Origin: Gemmatimonadota bacterium
GTDB taxonomy: Bacteria; Gemmatimonadota; Gemmatimonadetes; Gemmatimonadales; Gemmatimonadaceae
Direction: 5' to 3'
NCBI GenBank assembly: GCA_031127085.1
Contig: JARIEY010000006.1
Span: forward strand, 1-42,803
Length of the DNA: 42,803 nucleotides
Shown: positions 14,026-24,220 of the stretch, in pieces
Layout: the number at the start of each line of letters is the position of its first letter
Numbering within the stretch: position 1 is the stretch's first letter
Notes under the pieces: generated by a model
Told to the model about the DNA's origin: nothing
What the model saw: the letters and a program-made list of their open reading frames with translations, nothing else
The model's database searches: none
Program-made: the position numbers and the translations under genes

Positions 14026-15510
14026 CTACGGTGTGGTCGGCCGAGTTTGCGCTGCTCGGCGATTCGCGGTGCGCAGGATGCCCAGGCCGACGAGGTTCAT
14101 CACGACGACAACGAGCGTGATCTTGAGAGCGAACGTCGAGACGCTCTCCACCTTGATAATGGGGAAGACGGCCAGCGCGATGTAGAGCAACGTCATCAGC
14201 AAGCCCGACAGTGCGGCGATGCGCAGCCAGAGTGGGGGGCGGGGGGTGACGTTGCGGAGGCCAAACAGCGGGATGGCAAACATCACCACGTACGTCAACG
14301 CGTAGAAGACGCCGCTGGCGTTGAAGAGCAGCTGGAACGCCTCGGCCTGGCCGACGCCAATGAGGCTGAGCAGTGCGATGCCGAACGAGCAGCAGCCGAC
14401 GAGCACAATGGAGTTGACGGGCGTGCGGTACTTGTTGTGCAGCCGGCTGAACCAGGGCGGCAGCATGCGATCCCAGCCGGCAACCATCGGGAGCCGGGTC
14501 ACGGCGGTGAAGCTGACGCTGGCCTGCGCGACGCGCATGCCAAGCGTCATCAGAATGGCAATCGTCACCAGCGGTCCGGCAATGCCGAACGGACCGAAGC
14601 CCGCGCGCAGCACCTGCGGCAGCGGGGCGATGAGATCGATCTCTCCCTGCGGCACGTATGCGACGACCGTGCTGGTGCCGAGGACGAACATCAACGCAAT
14701 GATGGGCGCGGCAATGAGCACCGAGCGCCCGACGGCGCGCGCGGGCGCCTTGGTTTCGCCGGCGAGAATGGCGATGTACTCGAATCCGCCGAGCGCGCCA
14801 AAGCCGAGCTTGCCGAGGATGTTGAGATTGTAGAGCGAAAGCTCGGGAATGCTGGTGCGGAGCGGGTTATAGGCCTTCAGGTGGCCGGTGGCGAGCCCGA
14901 GCAGCGGGAGCAGAATCAGGGCGCCAAAGATGACCAGCATCATCACGCCGCCGGTGTTGTGCACCCATTTGCCAACAGAGAGCCCGATGGTTGAAGCCAC
15001 CACCATCAACGACAGAATCACCGCGGACGCAACGGCGACGAAAGGTGTGCTGGTGGTCATCCACGCCGCGCTGGGGCCCAGCGCGTACGACAAGTACGTG
15101 GCCACCTGCAGGCCGACTTCCGACGTGAAGACAATCACGTACAACCACAGATTCCAGGCGAGCATGAAGCCGATGGTTTGGTTGAAGCCGAGCTTCGCCC
15201 ACTGGTAGAGCCCGCCCTCCAGCGGCATCAGCCGGTTGAGGTACATCACCACCGCCGCCGACGGCAAATAGAACAGCACCAGCGCGAGCAGCCAGAAGAC
15301 CACGTGCTGCGGGCCGAGCTTTCCGGCCACACCAATCCAGGTCAGACCAACAATGAACAGGATCTGGGTCAGGGCGAGATCGCGAACGCCGAGTTCCTTC
15401 TTGAGCTCGGCGCTGTGCTGCTGCACATCCGCTTCCGCGGCAGCCAGCTGCGCTGGTGGCGCGCCCCCGTTGCCGGCGGCGTCTGCGGGGGCGCGTTCGT
15501 CGCGCCTCAC
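14026..15510 (-). CDS. APC-superfamily amino acid permease
   Basis: LKKELGVRDLALTQILFIVGLTWIGVAGKLG, multi-TM; likely GTG start at 15510 in a GTGA overlap with the M20 peptidase stop. Confidence 0.88.
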   Translation of the reverse strand: MRRDERAPADAAGNGGAPPAQLAAAEADVQQHSAELKKELGVRDLALTQILFIVGLTWIGVAGKLGPQHVVFWLLALVLFYLPSAAVVMYLNRLMPLEGGLYQWAKLGFNQTIGFMLAWNLWLYVIVFTSEVGLQVATYLSYALGPSAAWMTTSTPFVAVASAVILSLMVVASTIGLSVGKWVHNTGGVMMLVIFGALILLPLLGLATGHLKAYNPLRTSIPELSLYNLNILGKLGFGALGGFEYIAILAGETKAPARAVGRSVLIAAPIIALMFVLGTSTVVAYVPQGEIDLIAPLPQVLRAGFGPFGIAGPLVTIAILMTLGMRVAQASVSFTAVTRLPMVAGWDRMLPPWFSRLHNKYRTPVNSIVLVGCCSFGIALLSLIGVGQAEAFQLLFNASGVFYALTYVVMFAIPLFGLRNVTPRPPLWLRIAALSGLLMTLLYIALAVFPIIKVESVSTFALKITLVVVVMNLVGLGILRTANRRAAQTRPTTP

Positions 15511-16889
15511 GCGTGAGCCTCGCCGAGCAGTTCCCAGTAGCGTGCCCACGCCTCGAGCCCCTCGTGCAACCGGTTCACCCGGAAGAACTCGTTGGGTGCG
15601 TGGTAGTCCTCATCGGACGTGGAGAACGAGAAGTAGACGGTGTCGATCCCCATATGTCGATTGAACAGCTCCATAATGGGGACCGTGGCTCCCATCCGCA
15701 CGACGAGCGGCGTTTCGCCATACACCGCCTGCAGCGCTGCCGAGGCGGCGGCGAGTGCGGGGTGATCGGTGGCGATGTGCGCAGCCGGTGTGCCGTGATC
15801 TCCAGGCGCAATCGTGAGGCGCGTGCCCGGCGGTTGATGCGCCTCGAGGTGGCGCGTGATCACGGCGACGATCTCGTCGGGATCCTGATCGGGGACCAGC
15901 CGGCACGTGATCTTGGCGTGCGCCTCGCAGGGGATGACGGTCTTCTGGCCGGGGCCCTGATAGCCTCCCCACAGCCCGTTCAGTTCAAGCGTGGGCCGTG
16001 TCCACTGGCGCTCGAGGAGCGTGTAGCCCTGCTCGCCGTGCCCGGGGGGCGCACCGATCTGTGCGAGATACTCGGCATCGTCAAACGGGATGGCCGCGAT
16101 GGCCGCACGCTCTGCGTCGCTCAACTCACGAACGCGGTCGTAGAAGCCGGCCACGGCGATGCGGCCATCGGCGTGGTGCAGCGACGCGATGAGCTGCGCC
16201 ATCGCCTGCAGCGGATTGGCGACGCTCCCGCCGTGCCGCCCGGAGTGCAGGTCCTTGGCGGCGGCGGTCAAGGTGAGGTTGAGGCCGGCAAGGCCGCGGC
16301 TGGCGACGGTGAGCGACGGTTCGGTGGGGCGCCACATCGCTCCATCGGCCGAGAGCACGAGGTCGGCGGCCAGCAGTTCCTTGTGGGCGGCGATGAAGGG
16401 ATCGAGACTGGGACTCCCAATCTCTTCCTCTCCTTCAATCAGGAACTTGATGTTGAGCGGCAGTGCGCCGTCGACGGCAAAGAACGCCTCGGCGACCATC
16501 ATTGGAATCAGCACGGGCCCCTTGTCGTCGGAGACGCCGCGGGCGTAGAGCCGGCCATCGCGCACGGTCGGCGAGAACGGAGGCGTATCCCACTTCTCCA
16601 ACGGATCGGGCGGCTGCACGTCGTAGTGCCCGTAAACGAGCACCGTGGGCTTGCCCAGCGCACCGAGCCACTCGGCGTAAATGATGGGATTGTGCGGCGT
16701 CTCCATCACGCGCACGGAGAGCGGGCCGGCGGTGGCAAGCCGATCGGCCACCCACTGCGCGGCTCGCCGCATATCGTCGGCGTGTGCCGGATCGGTGCTG
16801 ACGCTGGGAATCGCCGCGAAATCAGTGAGCAGGTTGAGAATGCGTTCGTGATGGGAGCGGAGATAGGCACGCACGTTCTCGCCAGGCAT
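15507..16889 (-). CDS. M20-family metallo-dipeptidase
   Basis: VLVYGHYDVQPPDPLEKWDTPPFSP, LYARGVSDDKGPV, FLIEGEEEIGSPSL, DLHSGRHGGSVANPLQAM. Confidence 0.93.
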   Translation of the reverse strand: MPGENVRAYLRSHHERILNLLTDFAAIPSVSTDPAHADDMRRAAQWVADRLATAGPLSVRVMETPHNPIIYAEWLGALGKPTVLVYGHYDVQPPDPLEKWDTPPFSPTVRDGRLYARGVSDDKGPVLIPMMVAEAFFAVDGALPLNIKFLIEGEEEIGSPSLDPFIAAHKELLAADLVLSADGAMWRPTEPSLTVASRGLAGLNLTLTAAAKDLHSGRHGGSVANPLQAMAQLIASLHHADGRIAVAGFYDRVRELSDAERAAIAAIPFDDAEYLAQIGAPPGHGEQGYTLLERQWTRPTLELNGLWGGYQGPGQKTVIPCEAHAKITCRLVPDQDPDEIVAVITRHLEAHQPPGTRLTIAPGDHGTPAAHIATDHPALAAASAALQAVYGETPLVVRMGATVPIMELFNRHMGIDTVYFSFSTSDEDYHAPNEFFRVNRLHEGLEAWARYWELLGEAHA

Positions 16890-17656
16890 CAGCGGCCTCC
16901 GTCGATGGACAGCACTTGCCCGGAGATCCAGTTGGCGTCGTCCGATGCGAAGAAGAGCACGCCGTGCGCGATGTCATCGGGTGTGCCGAGCCGCTTGAGC
17001 GCGATGCGCTCGACCAGTGCGCGCTGTCCCTCCTCGCCGTAAGACGCCCACTGCCGCTCCGTAGCGTCGTTACACCGCACGAAGCCGGGGGCCACGTTGT
17101 TGACCGTGATGTTCCAGGGCCCGAGTTCGTGGGCGAGCTGTCGGGTGAGGCCAATCTGCGCCGCCTTGGCCGACGCGTAGGCCTGGATGCCGGTGAGACT
17201 GATGCCGAGTCCGGCGCCGCTGGAGATGTTGATGATGCGGCCGAACCGCGCGGCCTTCATATGCGGGGCAACGGCCTGGGCGAAGTAGAAAGCGCCCGTG
17301 ACATTGACGTCAAAAATGCCCTGCCAATCGGCGGGGGAAATCTCCTCGAGCGGACGTCCGACCTGGCCGAGCACGCCACCGGCGTTGTTCACGAGGACAT
17401 CGACGGTGCCAGACGCCGCGGCGGCCTCGGCGACAAAGAGGCCGACGGCGTGCGCGTCACGAATGTCGACGGTGCGCACGGTGCACGCGCCGCCGGCTGC
17501 CGCGCAGAGCCGCTGCGTTTCAGCGAGCTCATCGGCGAGCAGATCGCAGCCCCACACGACGGCGCCTCTCTGCGCGAAGGCGAGCGCTATGGCGCGACCG
17601 AAGCCGTGAGCGGCTCCGGTGACGATGACGGTCTTGCCGGAGAAATCCGGATGCAT
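16889..17656 (-). CDS. SDR-family oxidoreductase
   Basis: VTGAAHGFGRAIALAFAQRGAVV, NNAGG, ISS...YASAKAA (YxxxK), C-terminal SIDGGR. Confidence 0.92.
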   Translation of the reverse strand: MHPDFSGKTVIVTGAAHGFGRAIALAFAQRGAVVWGCDLLADELAETQRLCAAAGGACTVRTVDIRDAHAVGLFVAEAAAASGTVDVLVNNAGGVLGQVGRPLEEISPADWQGIFDVNVTGAFYFAQAVAPHMKAARFGRIINISSGAGLGISLTGIQAYASAKAAQIGLTRQLAHELGPWNITVNNVAPGFVRCNDATERQWASYGEEGQRALVERIALKRLGTPDDIAHGVLFFASDDANWISGQVLSIDGGR

Positions 17657-17667
17657 AGTGCGGAACC

Positions 17668-18696
17668 CTAAGTGAGTACGGCGGCAAGCGCCGCGAGCGT
17701 GTCGAGCGACTGTGTGCGCGTGCCGTTTTCGATGTCGTGAATCAGTTCCACGAGGCGCGCGGTGAGCGGTGTGGGTACGCCGGCCTCGGCACCGAGCGTG
17801 ACGACAATGCCCAGTTGCGCATCGACCTCGGTGCGGCGCTTGCGCACCGCGAGGTCGCGCCAGATGCCGCTATGCGTCTTGGCCGAACGCCGATTGTGCG
17901 CGACCAGGGCGTCGAGCGATTGGTCGGGAGCATTGGCCGGTGCGCCGGGGAGGTACGCTGAAGGATCGAAGCCATCGAAGCCCAGCGGGGTGACGCCGCG
18001 CGCCGAGGCGACTGCGAGAATTTCGCGTGCGAGCGCGATGTAGACGGCACGATACGCCGGCATCGCGAGCGCGTCGGCGATGGACTCGTTGGTCAGCGCG
18101 GTGGTGAACAGCATCGCGCCATAGGCCTGCTTGCCCCAGAGGAAGCCCCAAATGTTGGGGGTGATGATGGCCCGGTCATCGAAGTGGCGCCACGCGGCAT
18201 GGATGGCGGTGACACGCGGTGTCACCTGCCCATCGATTTCTCCAATGACGACAGCTCCACGGCCGCCGTAGAGAATCACGCCCGGTTCCAGATAGTCGGC
18301 ACCAAAGTTCACAAAGGCGCCCACGGTGCGGTCGGCACCCACGAGGCGCGCGATGGTGATTTCGTTCAGGCCATTCTGTGCCGACACCACGCAGCCCGTG
18401 GGGGCCAAATGGGGACGCAGTGCCTGCGTGGCCGCCTCGGTGTGCTGCGCCTTGGTGGCGAGCACGATGGTGTCCCAGACGCCGGTGAGTTGCGCCGGCG
18501 TGTACGCGGGCATCGTCTGGGTGAAGTCGGCGATGGGGCCGGTGATATGCAGTCCATGCTGCCGCACCGCGGCGATGTGTTCATCGACGACGTCGACCAA
18601 CGTGACGTCGTGGCCCGCGCGCGCCAGATACGCGCCCATCGTGCCGCCAATCGCGCCCGCGCCCCAAATGAGGCACCGCATCTTGTCGTCTCCCAT
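17668..18696 (-). CDS. Ketopantoate reductase (ApbA/PanE)-family protein
   Basis: MRCLIWGAGAIGGTMGAYLARAGHDVTLVD; VLATKAQHTEAATQAL; SAQNGLNE. Start at 18696 gives an ATGA overlap with the creatininase-family gene; the listed N-terminal extension to 19044 is out-of-frame translation of that gene. Confidence 0.88.
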   Translation of the reverse strand: MGDDKMRCLIWGAGAIGGTMGAYLARAGHDVTLVDVVDEHIAAVRQHGLHITGPIADFTQTMPAYTPAQLTGVWDTIVLATKAQHTEAATQALRPHLAPTGCVVSAQNGLNEITIARLVGADRTVGAFVNFGADYLEPGVILYGGRGAVVIGEIDGQVTPRVTAIHAAWRHFDDRAIITPNIWGFLWGKQAYGAMLFTTALTNESIADALAMPAYRAVYIALAREILAVASARGVTPLGFDGFDPSAYLPGAPANAPDQSLDALVAHNRRSAKTHSGIWRDLAVRKRRTEVDAQLGIVVTLGAEAGVPTPLTARLVELIHDIENGTRTQSLDTLAALAAVLT

Positions 18697-19451
18697 CACG
18701 GCGTGCCGCCCCACGACCCCGTGAGGAGCGCGCGTGTCTCTTCCACCGCGACCTGCCAGAGGGCGAGCATTTCGTCGTCGTCGCGCTGGTAGTGCCCGCC
18801 ATAGTTCCCGTCGCCGAGGTAGGCACGCAGCGCGACGGGATCGAGTGCGCGCACGCGGGCGAGATCGACCATCGGCCGCGGTTCCGCCGGCTGGGCGACG
18901 CCCGGCAGTCGCGTCCAGGGGAAGTTCTCCATCCACGATCCGTGCGACGCAACGGGATCGATGGCCTGCACCTTGGCCCACGTCTGCGGCGCGTTCCACC
19001 AGTTGTGGAAGATGACGCGGCACTCCGCGTGGTCGGCGGCCCATTCCTGGGCGAACTGCTGCACCGCGCCGTTCCCGCCGTGCCCGTTGACGATGAGGAT
19101 GCGGCGAAAGCCGCTGTGCGCCAGGGAGTCGAGCACATCGCGCACAACGTGCAGGTGCGTCTCGACCTTCAGCGAGATGGAACCCGGAAACTCCCGAAAG
19201 TATGGCGTAACCCCGTACGGGAGCACGGGAAAGACGGGGATACCCAGCGGTTCCGCCGCTTCCACGGCGACGCGCTCCGGGAGGATGGCATCCACGGTGA
19301 GGCGCAGGTGGCTGTGTTGCTCGGTGCTGCCCAGCGGCAGCACGGCGCGGTCGTCACGGCGCAGGTAGTCCTCGACCTGCATCCAGTTCATATCGCTGAT
19401 GCGCACGTCGCATGTCCTCGGACGGTGATGGCTCCAACCGTGGCCGCCCAA
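18696..19451 (-). CDS. Creatininase-family amidohydrolase
   Basis: LPLGSTEQHSHLRLTVDAILPERVA, IVNGHGGNGAVQQFAQEW. Start may be internal (e.g. MNWMQVEDYL). Confidence 0.9.
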   Translation of the reverse strand: MGGHGWSHHRPRTCDVRISDMNWMQVEDYLRRDDRAVLPLGSTEQHSHLRLTVDAILPERVAVEAAEPLGIPVFPVLPYGVTPYFREFPGSISLKVETHLHVVRDVLDSLAHSGFRRILIVNGHGGNGAVQQFAQEWAADHAECRVIFHNWWNAPQTWAKVQAIDPVASHGSWMENFPWTRLPGVAQPAEPRPMVDLARVRALDPVALRAYLGDGNYGGHYQRDDDEMLALWQVAVEETRALLTGSWGGTP

Positions 19452-19476: not shown

Positions 19477-22400
19477 CTATGCGACCGGGCGCGTGGGGAA
19501 GCCGGCGTAGCTGAGGCCGGCATGCAGGTGCTCGTGCTTGAGCACCACGCTGTGCGGGGCGACGCGCACACCAGCGCCGATATCGGCGCCGTAGAGCAGC
19601 ACCGCATTGTGCCCCACGGTGGCGCCGCGCCGGATGGCGATGCGATCCATCTTGAGGACGCGATCCTCGAACGTGTGCGCCTGGAAGAGGCAGTCGACCG
19701 TTGCTCCGTCCTCGAATGTGAGCATATCGGGATCGGGGAGATCCTCGGCGAAGCCGACGCCCAGCACCACGCGGCGGCCGACATTCACGCCGGTGGCGCG
19801 CAGCAGCGCGTTGAGCAGCAGCGTGCCGTCGAGCTGCGAGACCAGCGGACCGGCGCAGATATGCCAGGCGAGGCACATCAGGTCCCAGCGCGACGCCCAA
19901 CTGGACCAGAGCGGATGCATGGCCGGCTGCACTTTGCCGAGCAGCGACCACTTGGTGATGACGACCGCGGCCGTGAATGCGGCGCCACACAGTAGCGTGA
20001 TCACCGGGAGCGCGACCAGCAAGAAGAGCGGCAACGGAAGTCCCGTCCACGTGGCCACGAGTGCGAGCCAGGCGAGCACGATGATGACCGGGAGTGCGGG
20101 GACGGCAAAGCGCGTCAGCTCCCAGAAAATGCGCACCACGTAGCGCCACGGCGTGGGGTCAAACGTGAACTGCGCGTCGAACTCCACCACTTCGCGATGC
20201 GGCAGTTCAAAGGCGGGATGCCCAAACCAGGCGCTACCGCGACGCATCGTGGCCTGATCGGCCACGGTGCAGATGCCGAGCAGGATGTCGTCGGGGAGCT
20301 GCGCGCCGGACGGGACGATGACGCCGTTGCCAAGAAAGGTGGCACTGCCGAAGGTCGTGTGCGCGGTGGTGACGGTGCCGCGGTGAAGTCGTGCCCCGCC
20401 GATGTAGATGCCATCGGCGAAGAAGTTTCGGTCCCCGATGGTCACCGTCTCCGGGACGGTGTCGATGAGTGAGCTGATTTCACAGTCGCGGCCCACCTGC
20501 ATACCGGCGAGGCGCAACCAGTATGGCCAGAAGAGCGTGCCATAGAGCCACTTGCTGGCGTTGTCGACGAGCATCGGCTTGAGCCAGACGCGCACGTAGG
20601 CGCTGCTCCAGCGCGAGATGGACCGACTGCCCACGGGACCCAGCGCGCGACAGGCCAGTGCGCTGAGCACTAGGCGCAGCGGGACCGTGCACGCGAGGAG
20701 CAGGGCGATGATTGCCGCCACGTCCCAGCTGAACCGACCGCTCTGTGTGTAGGCGACGACTGCGGCGGCGTCGAGACGCCACGCGCGCAGGGCGAGCCAA
20801 GTGAGCAGGCCGAGCGGAACGCCGAAAACGGCGGCGAGCCCAATGCGCGTGCCGTGCAGCCGCAGCGCGTACGCGACCGGTGTGAGGTCGGCGGTGTGAC
20901 TGACCGCCGGCGGGGCGGGGGCGTGTCCCGCCGACTGCGCGGGAATACCGTCCCATCGTTCACCGGCCGGGACGTGGGTGTCGGCGTCGAGCGAGGCGTT
21001 GTCGGCGAGCAGTGCGTTAGCGCCCATCACACAGCCGCCGCCAACGCCCGCATGCACGCCAATGGTCACCCCAGCGCCGAGCGTCACGGGAGAGAAGACG
21101 AGGTGACCGTCATCGAGTTCGGCGATTCGCAGCGCGGCATCCTGCGAGAGGGTCACGTCGTCGCCGATGTCGAGCAGGTCCCACCCGCCGCGCGTGAGCA
21201 CGACGCCGCGATGGATGTGCACGCGCTGGCCGATGCGTGCGCCCAGGGCGCGCAGCGCCATCACCTGAAACTCGGTGCCCTCGAGTATCCACCACGGGAC
21301 GGACTTCACGGATTGCTGCACGAACCAGTGCGGCAGGTACGCCGGCGTCCAGACACGCACGCGTCCGGGTGTGTAGCGGCCAATCAGTCGGCGTTTGCCG
21401 AGGACGGCGAGCGTGACGGCAATGGGCGCCCAGGCCAAGACTGCGAGGAGCGCGATGGGCGGGGCGAGCAAGACAGACGGCACCACGCCCAGTTGCAGCA
21501 CGAGCGTTGGCACCAGATGAAAGGCCGCCAGCCAGAGCACGAGCGAGGCCACGAGCAGCGAGCGGAGCAACGACAGTGTCTGCCGCAGCGTCACGCCGGT
21601 GACCGGGATATCGAGGTCGAGGGTGCTCGCGGGAGTGTCGGCCGCTGTGCCGCGGGGCCCGCGATCGCGCACGCGCGCGGCGAGACCGGCGACGGTGCGC
21701 GCTTCGTACACGTCGCGCACGTCGAGCACGTTGGTGCGTTCATCATCGCGCAACCGCGTGATGAGGTCGGCGGCACTCAGCGAGTCGCCGCCGAGCGCGG
21801 TAAAGAAATCGGCGGCGGGGTCCGGGTAGGGGCCCATACGCACCACGTGACGCACGGCTTCCGCGATGGCGCGTTCGAGCGGATCGTCGGGGGCGGCGGC
21901 TGCGCCGGTGACGGGCGTCGTGGTGAGGCGCGGGAGCGCGCGGCGGTCGAGTTTGCCGCCGATTGAGGTGGGGAGCGCGTCGATGGCGGCGATCTGCGCC
22001 GGCACCATATACGGCGGGAGCACGGCGCGCAGCGCTTCCTGCAGCGAGGCGGCTGTTGGCACCGGCACCATCGCTTCGGGCACAATGAAGGCGACCAGCG
22101 TCTGGCGTCCGTCGTCGTCCTGCACGGTGCAGGCTGCCTCGCGCACCCCGTCGCAGGCGGTGAGCGCCGACTCCACCGCGCCCAGTTCGACGCGATATCC
22201 ACGCAGCTTTACCTGCGCATCGAGGCGCCCATGATAGATCAGCGTGCCATCGGCGGTCCGCTGGGCGCTGTCGCCGGTGCGGTAGATGCGACCGAGCTGC
22301 GGGTGGTGCGGAAACCGTTCGGCGGTGAGCGCCGGCTGGTTCCAGTAGCCGCGTGCCAGCGAGGCGCCTCCGAAGACCAACTCGCCGCGTTCGCCGTCGG

Positions 22401-23442
22401 GTACTGGCTCCAACTGCTCATCGACGACCCACGCCTGCACATTGTGCACGGGGATGCCGATGGTGATGGGCATTCCTGTGGCGATGTGCGCCCTCGTGCA
22501 GGTGACCGTACACTCGGTGGGGCCGTATCCGTTGACGAGCGACCGTCCCTGCCCCCAGCGGTCGGCGACATCCTGCGGCAGCGCTTCGCCGCCTACATAC
22601 AGCAGGCGCAGTTCAGGGAGTTCGCGCGCCGGATGTTCACATCCGGTGGCGCGCAACAGCGTCGGGGGCGGACAGAAGACGGAGACGCGTTCGTGGCGCA
22701 GCCAGCCCACGAGGTCTGGGCCCAGGCGCGCCGCGTCGTCGTCCATGACAACGAGGGTGGCGCCCGCCGCGAACGCGAGCCATGTCTCTTCAATAGAGGA
22801 GTCATAGGCCGATGAAGACCCCTGCACTACGCGGTCTTCGGGGGCGAGGCCGAACGCGTCCAAATCGGAGTGCACCAGATTGGCGATGGAGCGGTGCTCG
22901 ATCATCACCCCTTTGGGGCGCCCTGTGGTGCCCGAGGTGTAGATGACGTAGGCGAGCGACGCCGGGGTCAGCCACGACGGTGACGGGGCGGGCGCAGTGT
23001 GTGCGTGGCAATGCAGCAGGTCAACGACATCGAGAATACGCTCAGCGGGAAAGCCGGCGGAGAGGGCACGCGCGCGGCCCGCGGCGTCGGTGAGCAGGGC
23101 GGCCGGTTGCGCGTCCGCGAAGGTGTCGCGCAAGCGCTCGTCCGGGAAGGCGAGGTCGACACACGTGTATGCCGCGCCTGCGCGAAGGACACCGAGTTGC
23201 GCCGCGTAGAGGTGCACGGCAGTGCGCGGCAGGAGGATGGCGACGATGCATTCCCCGGCGAGCAGCGGGGCGAGCGCGTGCGCCACGGCGCCGGCGTGCC
23301 GGTCGAGTTCGGCGTAGGTCGTGCGGTGGCGCGAGGGGCGGAGGCGTCCCGGCGGCACATCGACGGCGACCTGCTGGGGCCAGCGCGCGACGGAGCGGGC
23401 GAAGAAGTCGTGAAGCAGCCCCGGAGCCGCCTCACGATTCAT
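19477..23442 (-). CDS. Pls/PosA-type single-module NRPS: adenylation - PCP - transmembrane/hexapeptide C-terminal region
   Basis: 1321 aa; A domain YVIYTSGTTGRPKGVMIEH, NGYGPTECTV, YRTGD, GKLDRR; PCP FFTALGGDSLSAAD; C-terminus with paired TM segments and left-handed-helix (hexapeptide) repeats; no condensation or thioesterase domain seen. Confidence 0.9.
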   Translation of the reverse strand: MNREAAPGLLHDFFARSVARWPQQVAVDVPPGRLRPSRHRTTYAELDRHAGAVAHALAPLLAGECIVAILLPRTAVHLYAAQLGVLRAGAAYTCVDLAFPDERLRDTFADAQPAALLTDAAGRARALSAGFPAERILDVVDLLHCHAHTAPAPSPSWLTPASLAYVIYTSGTTGRPKGVMIEHRSIANLVHSDLDAFGLAPEDRVVQGSSSAYDSSIEETWLAFAAGATLVVMDDDAARLGPDLVGWLRHERVSVFCPPPTLLRATGCEHPARELPELRLLYVGGEALPQDVADRWGQGRSLVNGYGPTECTVTCTRAHIATGMPITIGIPVHNVQAWVVDEQLEPVPDGERGELVFGGASLARGYWNQPALTAERFPHHPQLGRIYRTGDSAQRTADGTLIYHGRLDAQVKLRGYRVELGAVESALTACDGVREAACTVQDDDGRQTLVAFIVPEAMVPVPTAASLQEALRAVLPPYMVPAQIAAIDALPTSIGGKLDRRALPRLTTTPVTGAAAAPDDPLERAIAEAVRHVVRMGPYPDPAADFFTALGGDSLSAADLITRLRDDERTNVLDVRDVYEARTVAGLAARVRDRGPRGTAADTPASTLDLDIPVTGVTLRQTLSLLRSLLVASLVLWLAAFHLVPTLVLQLGVVPSVLLAPPIALLAVLAWAPIAVTLAVLGKRRLIGRYTPGRVRVWTPAYLPHWFVQQSVKSVPWWILEGTEFQVMALRALGARIGQRVHIHRGVVLTRGGWDLLDIGDDVTLSQDAALRIAELDDGHLVFSPVTLGAGVTIGVHAGVGGGCVMGANALLADNASLDADTHVPAGERWDGIPAQSAGHAPAPPAVSHTADLTPVAYALRLHGTRIGLAAVFGVPLGLLTWLALRAWRLDAAAVVAYTQSGRFSWDVAAIIALLLACTVPLRLVLSALACRALGPVGSRSISRWSSAYVRVWLKPMLVDNASKWLYGTLFWPYWLRLAGMQVGRDCEISSLIDTVPETVTIGDRNFFADGIYIGGARLHRGTVTTAHTTFGSATFLGNGVIVPSGAQLPDDILLGICTVADQATMRRGSAWFGHPAFELPHREVVEFDAQFTFDPTPWRYVVRIFWELTRFAVPALPVIIVLAWLALVATWTGLPLPLFLLVALPVITLLCGAAFTAAVVITKWSLLGKVQPAMHPLWSSWASRWDLMCLAWHICAGPLVSQLDGTLLLNALLRATGVNVGRRVVLGVGFAEDLPDPDMLTFEDGATVDCLFQAHTFEDRVLKMDRIAIRRGATVGHNAVLLYGADIGAGVRVAPHSVVLKHEHLHAGLSYAGFPTRPVA

Positions 23443-23541: not shown

Positions 23542-24060
23542 CTACTGCGTCGCTCCGTGGTCCACTGGGCTTACCGCGGTGGCAGGATCACGCCGTGCGA
23601 ACTCCAGGAGGCCGCCAAGTTCGTAGATGCGGATGATCGAGTCGCTGAATTCTCCACGAAATGACGTCGCGCCACTGCTGCGGTCGATGATGAAGCGCAG
23701 CGTGGAATCGCGTCCCATTGCACGACCCTCCACGCGTCCCTCGTTGGTCTCCGTCACGAGGACGGTGCCATCGCACGACCGCATCGTTGAGCGGTAGATG
23801 AAGCCGCGGCCACTGCGGGTGATGAGCAGCGAGCCGTCGGCGACGCGGTCGCGGCAGTCGACGGCGGCGCTGCGGGAGCCTGGCGCCTCCAGTACGGGGC
23901 CGGCGCCGTGGACGCGCTGGCCGTCAATGCGTACCAGAGGGAACTCCCGGCCGCGGAGGGCGACGGGGGCGGGGGCGCTGCCGGCGCAGCCGAGCGTGCC
24001 AAGCGCAGCGAACGCGAGCAGCAGCGGCGTGATGCCGGGACAACGGAGATGGCGGACCAT
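23542..24060 (-). CDS. Hypothetical lipoprotein
   Basis: MVRHLRCPGITPLLLAFAALGTLGCAGSAPAP (lipobox LGTLGC); start 24060 chosen over the listed 24132. Confidence 0.65.
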   Translation of the reverse strand: MVRHLRCPGITPLLLAFAALGTLGCAGSAPAPVALRGREFPLVRIDGQRVHGAGPVLEAPGSRSAAVDCRDRVADGSLLITRSGRGFIYRSTMRSCDGTVLVTETNEGRVEGRAMGRDSTLRFIIDRSSGATSFRGEFSDSIIRIYELGGLLEFARRDPATAVSPVDHGATQ

Positions 24061-24220
24061 AGGGGTGCACACCAGTGAGGACGGGTGCATCATGGAGCGG
24101 CCGCTCGACGGATGCCAGAGTGCGCGGCACACTCGGCGTCACGCAGCTTCCGCCGGTGTCACGATGTGCAGGTCAGGCGCTGAAGTGTACGCCCCGCCGG
24201 TGGCGATTATAGCCCACCGC

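Follow-up and report, generated by a model that had tools for sequence, protein, structure and literature searches.

Locus and architecture of the synthetase

The window analysed here, i.e., the whole 42,803-nucleotide stretch of a Gemmatimonadota contig, carries on its minus strand a 1321-aa open reading frame that begins with ATG, has no internal stops, and is by sequence an intact A-PCP-membrane polymerase gene of the Pls-like kind (Table 1). A block of five tightly spaced genes lies downstream, and a 196-aa hypothetical protein is encoded upstream (23542-24132, minus strand), between ArgJ and the synthetase; it has no family match and is 52% identical in genome G003, where it occupies the same place.

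Table 1 Positions of the synthetase features and of the downstream gene block in the window
Feature	Residues (aa)	Position (nt)	Strand	Basis
Pls-like A-PCP-membrane polymerase gene, DSECYGGVTK subfamily		19477..23442	-	ORF, Pfam, TIGR02353, code, tree
Adenylation domain, large subdomain (PF00501 AMP-binding)	14-367	22342..23403	-	Pfam
Substrate pocket D214 S215 E218 C257 Y282 G284 G305 V313 T314 (GrsA 235-331)		22501..22803	-	Alignment
Adenylation domain, small subdomain (PF13193 AMP-binding_C), with A10 Lys497	423-497	21952..22176	-	Pfam
Peptidyl carrier domain (PF00550 PP-binding), phosphopantetheine Ser554 in LGGDSL	526-591	21670..21867	-	Pfam
C-terminal membrane polymerase region	606-1321	19480..21627	-	TIGR02353 and AlphaFold2 model
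TM hairpin 1	612-686	21385..21609	-	Hydropathy and AlphaFold2
Soluble unit C1, left-handed beta-helix	693-840	20923..21366	-	AlphaFold2 and fold search
TM hairpin 2	855-933	20644..20880	-	Hydropathy and AlphaFold2
Soluble unit C2, with invariant D1010 and N1039	940-1080	20203..20625	-	Alignment and AlphaFold2
TM hairpin 3	1105-1169	19936..20130	-	Hydropathy and AlphaFold2
Soluble unit C3	1174-1320	19483..19923	-	AlphaFold2
Invariant motif Q1254-x-H1256-x-x-E1259-D1260-x-x-x-K1264	1254-1264	19651..19683	-	Alignment
Five-gene block: creatininase family, ApbA/PanE-like (ketopantoate-reductase-like), SDR, M20 dipeptidase, GadC-like amino acid permease		14026-19451	-	Tight spacing

The architecture given in the preliminary description, in which an adenylation (A) and a carrier (PCP) domain are followed by paired transmembrane (TM) helices interleaved with soluble hexapeptide-repeat regions and no condensation or thioesterase domain is present, agrees with Pfam, hydropathy, and AlphaFold2 alike. 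Pfam finds neither a condensation nor a thioesterase domain in the protein, and at its C-terminus yields a single weak hexapeptide repeat match (aa 1270-1301). The key residues of the A and carrier domains are undisrupted, as the pocket Asp214 and Glu218, the A10 lysine, and the carrier serine are all present. Pls, the epsilon-poly-L-lysine synthetase, has the same architecture, while PosA, the delta-poly-L-ornithine synthetase of Acinetobacter baumannii, shares with the window protein its domain order, the pocket Asp and Glu, and the QxHxxED motif.

The C-terminal membrane half and the carrier

Hydropathy delimits three strong membrane regions (about aa 621-684, 862-935, and 1105-1169), and an AlphaFold2 model built from a ten-sequence alignment (mean pLDDT 89.3, pTM 0.89) predicts three successive repeats, each a TM hairpin leading into a left-handed beta-helix, which agrees with the three TM hairpins and three beta-helices of the published PosA model (PMC10522769). 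Sequence searches of solved structures with only the C-terminal half returned no useful match. By fold, the units of this half match acyltransferases including maltose and serine acetyltransferase, and unit C1 fits maltose and galactoside O-acetyltransferases with Z 14-15 over about 145 residues in VIA-align (maltose O-acetyltransferase best, Z 15); the PDB fold search covered mostly this first beta-helix unit, and families missing from it are uninformative. D1010, N1039, and the Q-x-H-x-x-E-D-x-x-x-K motif are among the residues that do not vary across the clade of the window protein and homologues of the poly-Orn, poly-Lys, and Dab types, and may constitute the acyl-transfer site.

Likeness to enzymes that transfer a single group raises an alternative, namely that the protein is an aminoacyl (arginyl) transferase instead of a polymerase, one that modifies the envelope by attaching a single basic residue to an amine of a lipid, polyamine, or sugar. 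Such a role would suit arginine, whose side chain is a poor nucleophile for forming successive isopeptide bonds, and would also suit a source genome (3.1-Mb draft, ~82% complete) in which neither a condensation domain (PF00668) nor a second full-length TIGR02353 gene was found. We nevertheless consider it quite unlikely, as the whole three-repeat polymerase region is kept, together with the residues invariant in poly-Orn- and poly-Lys-type enzymes, and no lipid-modifying neighbour was seen.

The carrier motif of the window protein is GGDSL (21781-21783), where canonical members mostly have GGHS. Complete relatives show a single ACPS-family phosphopantetheinyl transferase match among open frames of about 165-215 aa, and two canonical relatives have a phosphopantetheinyl transferase gene of their own next door. 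A switch to AcpS-type carrier activation in the window subfamily is a possible reading of these sequences.

Substrate pocket code

The pocket had been read by hand, in GrsA numbering, as D235 S236 E239 T278 Y299 G301 G322 V330 T331, with the substrate left unassignable. Alignment to the solved A domains of PosA and Pls (the latter, 7WEW, being the best solved match to the pocket region) bears out eight of these nine residues and corrects the remaining one: GrsA position 278 corresponds to Cys257, not Thr, with VFCPPPT of the window protein set against VLHAVPT in PosA and VVSTVPT in Pls. Including Lys497, the full code is DSECYGGVTK. The corrected code supplies a lead on the substrate, in that it is exactly the published code of a Bdellovibrionales homologue whose biochemistry points towards L-arginine (Patel and Gulick 2023, PMC10522769). 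The A domain of this CHPA homologue (Bdello_A), the only part of it assayed, failed on four diamino acids and was modestly active on L-arginine, the authors suspecting that its substrate is another and larger compound (PMC10522769). Bdello_A is likened to the window protein by the identical ten residues and by the A-PCP-terminal membrane domain family. The shared code argues against the Lys, Orn, and Dab end of the earlier candidate list.

In PosA, Asp217 and Glu221 are essential and the second pocket position gates chain length (PMC10522769); both acidic residues have counterparts in the window protein (D214 and E218), with a small Ser at position 2. Pls differs in its code (DAESIGTVVK, read from the alignment), its Lys substrate, and its carrier motif. 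A survey of A domains assigned DVESIGGVTK to arginine and homoarginine (PMC12283262), and seven of the ten residues, including the GGVTK end, are shared with the window code, although these domains come from modular synthetases with condensation domains, unlike the window protein. The comparison is weak on its own because the Dab-type code DFECLSAVTK still matches at six of ten positions, barely below the arginine code.

A separate subfamily beside TIGR02353

Against TIGR02353, the NCBIfam model of the Pls/PosA terminal domain, the protein aligns over positions 3-694/695 (E 8.5e-104) and scores 348.3 bits, below the curated equivalog cut-off of 423.1 bits. The window protein and four further clade members all lie between 342 and 359 bits, whereas canonical enzymes reach 725 bits (Acinetobacter PosA orthologue) and 548 bits (a Dab-type enzyme). 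Because of this sub-threshold score, we file the synthetase beside the curated family and not inside it. The earlier designation as a Pls/PosA-like membrane synthetase hence stands as regards architecture, homology, and a full-length C-terminal match, but not in the sense of an ordinary family member.

Fourteen homologues with DSE-YGG codes, from Gemmatimonadota, Streptomyces plasmids, Novosphingobium, one Anaerolineae MAG, and one unassigned MAG, were placed in a quick maximum-likelihood tree, in which they split off as one clade (SH-aLRT 100) with each canonical code class outside; this unrooted tree has one long row outside the clade and gives weak support to its basal splits and thereby to the position relative to Pls. 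The stem of the clade, at 1.29 changes per column, is the longest inner branch of the tree. Twelve of the 14 carry DSECYGGVTK, and the other two differ at a single position each (DSEMYGGVTK in L049, a MAG, and DSECYGGVVK in L051, the Anaerolineae MAG; both 46% identical to the window protein). The code is shared by all seven same-genus homologues, found in six other genomes (69-78% identity to the window, 66-100% among themselves, two being identical to each other), by members of two further Gemmatimonadota genera (58-59% and 49%), by copies on two Streptomyces linear plasmids (52%; NZ_CP108254.1 is a plasmid with such a copy), and by the Novosphingobium homologue (49%). The remaining family members, at about 30% identity, have known codes, e.g., DMEHNGTVSK in PosA of Acinetobacter and in Janthinobacterium, and DAESIGTV[V/I]K in Lys-type enzymes. 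Compared by sequence, these proteins form a distinct Pls-like subfamily with the code DSE[C/M]YGGV[T/V]K, which is homologous to the synthetases of epsilon-poly-lysine and delta-poly-ornithine but stands clearly apart from them.

The code could, however, merely have drifted within the clade while the product stayed an ordinary isopeptide-linked homopolymer, built from Lys, Orn, Dab, beta-Lys, or some unusual, longer diamino acid. This explanation draws on the architecture and invariant C-terminal residues shared with known polymerases, on the retained pocket Asp and Glu, on a fourth-position Cys and a ninth-position Thr that are seen in Dab-type codes too, and on side-chain amines that fit the known chemistry. 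We find it possible but doubtful, as the same-code Bdellovibrionales enzyme favoured none of the four diamino acids assayed (PMC10522769), the canonical codes all fall outside the clade, and no gene for diamino-acid biosynthesis (e.g., a Dab transaminase) was recognised next to any clade member examined.

Within Gemmatimonadota, homologues are patchily spread, occurring in 11 of the 395 genomes and 3 of the 138 genera sampled and, in the source genus, in 7 of 11 genomes, and one copy (G356) is broken by a single TAG. Patchiness and breakage of this kind would be expected of a decaying or non-functional relative, but we hold decay to be very improbable, given that every core residue, like the code, is retained from phylum to phylum and that dN/dS against four genus relatives is 0.10-0.19 in each of three regions, i.e., the gene is under purifying selection. 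Separately, one genome (G004) contains two copies, L043 (G004:C36) and L044 (G004:C8), of which one is protein-identical to that of G009 (L042, G009:C10) and the other 77% identical; this may reflect mixed binning of two species instead of duplication.

Genomic neighbourhoods

No neighbour in the window is linked to the synthetase. The adjoining ArgJ was considered as an arginine link and dismissed as background synteny, since G007, a genome of the same genus, has the same ArgJ block without a synthetase. The downstream creatininase-to-permease block was likewise rejected as a synthetase operon: orthologues of its two end genes lie a few kb apart in synthetase-less genomes and in several further genomes from the same family and order, and far from the synthetase in G001 and G003. 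It looks like an independent catabolic operon, a bystander as ArgJ is.

Among relatives, an APC antiporter gene lies directly upstream of the synthetase in three species of the Gemmatimonadota genus g22 (L140, L141, and L143), which as one lineage count as one observation. In L140, the one junction read base by base, the antiporter stop overlaps the synthetase start (TAATG). The L140 antiporter scores 225 bits against the NCBIfam basic amino acid/polyamine antiporter model and 198 bits against the arginine/agmatine antiporter model, both below cut-off, and its closest solved structure is AdiC (3e-45). At the positions of the AdiC arginine site (Ser26, Asn101, Trp202, and Trp293), Trp293 and Asn101 are kept, while Ser26 is replaced by Ile and Trp202 by Tyr.

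No neighbour was conserved across phyla among the clade members examined. A permease beside the Novosphingobium synthetase was discarded as a shared partner, being GadC-like and about 29% identical to the window permease. A small SET-domain protein is encoded directly upstream of the DSEMYGGVTK synthetase (L049 6467-6967), and was too loose a partner, as its Streptomyces plasmid counterpart (L137 31501-32103) lies about 14 kb downstream of the synthetase there. Neighbours can report the substrate in the Pls/PosA family: on a plasmid of Streptomyces sp. NBC_01527 (L149 687-7406), the gene of a canonical DFECLSAVTK synthetase runs with overlap into genes for diaminobutyrate transaminase and aspartate kinase, probably a cluster for poly-diaminobutyrate.

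Substrate, product, and significance

The analyses above show an intact gene, its domains, code, and subfamily, a fold model, and purifying selection; from these we infer substrate, polymerisation, linkage, and export as follows. The A domain would activate an amino acid that is both large and basic, L-arginine or a near relative (e.g., homoarginine) being the likeliest, with Asp214 holding the alpha-amine, Glu218 holding the charged end of the side chain, and the small Ser215 and Gly305 leaving room. Once loaded on carrier Ser554, the amino acid would be handed over at the membrane to the amine of an acceptor by the C-terminal bundle (three TM hairpins with three fused beta-helices), and repetition of this step would build up a short basic oligomer. 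Because guanidines are weak nucleophiles, a true arginine product would need linkage through the alpha-amine, unlike the known isopeptide polymers.

That the subfamily activates L-arginine or a related large basic amino acid (e.g., homoarginine) is the reading with the most support, although we hold it no more likely than not. It is supported by the code identity with an A domain active on L-Arg and unresponsive to four diamino acids (PMC10522769), by the near-invariance of that code across a clade with SH-aLRT 100, by the kept pocket Asp and Glu and the seven-residue match to the arginine/homoarginine code, and by the AdiC-like antiporter adjoining the synthetase in g22, with its overlap in L140. 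It is weakened by the modest Bdellovibrionales activity and the larger substrate suspected there (PMC10522769), by the want of a clade member with a known product, by the six-residue match of the Dab-type code, by an antiporter neighbour confined to one genus with its AdiC site half kept, by a guanidine that cannot act as the usual side-chain nucleophile, and by the unlinked neighbours in the window. That the clade goes on to link arginine (or homoarginine) via alpha-amines into an oligomer or polymer is in our judgement unlikely. To our knowledge, alpha-linked nonribosomal oligo- or poly-arginine is not known from nature, and known relatives of the polymerase make only side-chain isopeptide bonds; literature searches turned up no subsequent study of arginine polymers made by the Pls/PosA family.

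Some cationic amino acid homopolymers are used as preservatives, and poly-lysine is antimicrobial; we know of only a handful of such polymers, all of diamino acids. A multi-phylum clade with a near-invariant, non-diamino pocket is a specific and testable lead to another polymer, and the window synthetase may produce a so far undescribed basic polymer. The kind of enzyme was already known, as was one enzyme with the same code (PMC10522769); what is new is the subfamily as such, with its range and its distance from the TIGR02353 model, and the antiporter overlap. The standard family model leaves the subfamily unnamed in public records, where the Streptomyces plasmid copies are annotated simply as 'amino acid adenylation domain-containing protein'. 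What was one odd enzyme from Bdellovibrionales becomes part of a defined subfamily with cultured Streptomyces members (e.g., Streptomyces sp. NBC_00060) open to direct study. Streptomyces plasmids carry canonical relatives as well: on one from Streptomyces sp. NBC_01454 (L148 1416-6778), a Lys-code synthetase gene overlaps that of an M1 metallopeptidase, possibly a polymer-degrading partner.
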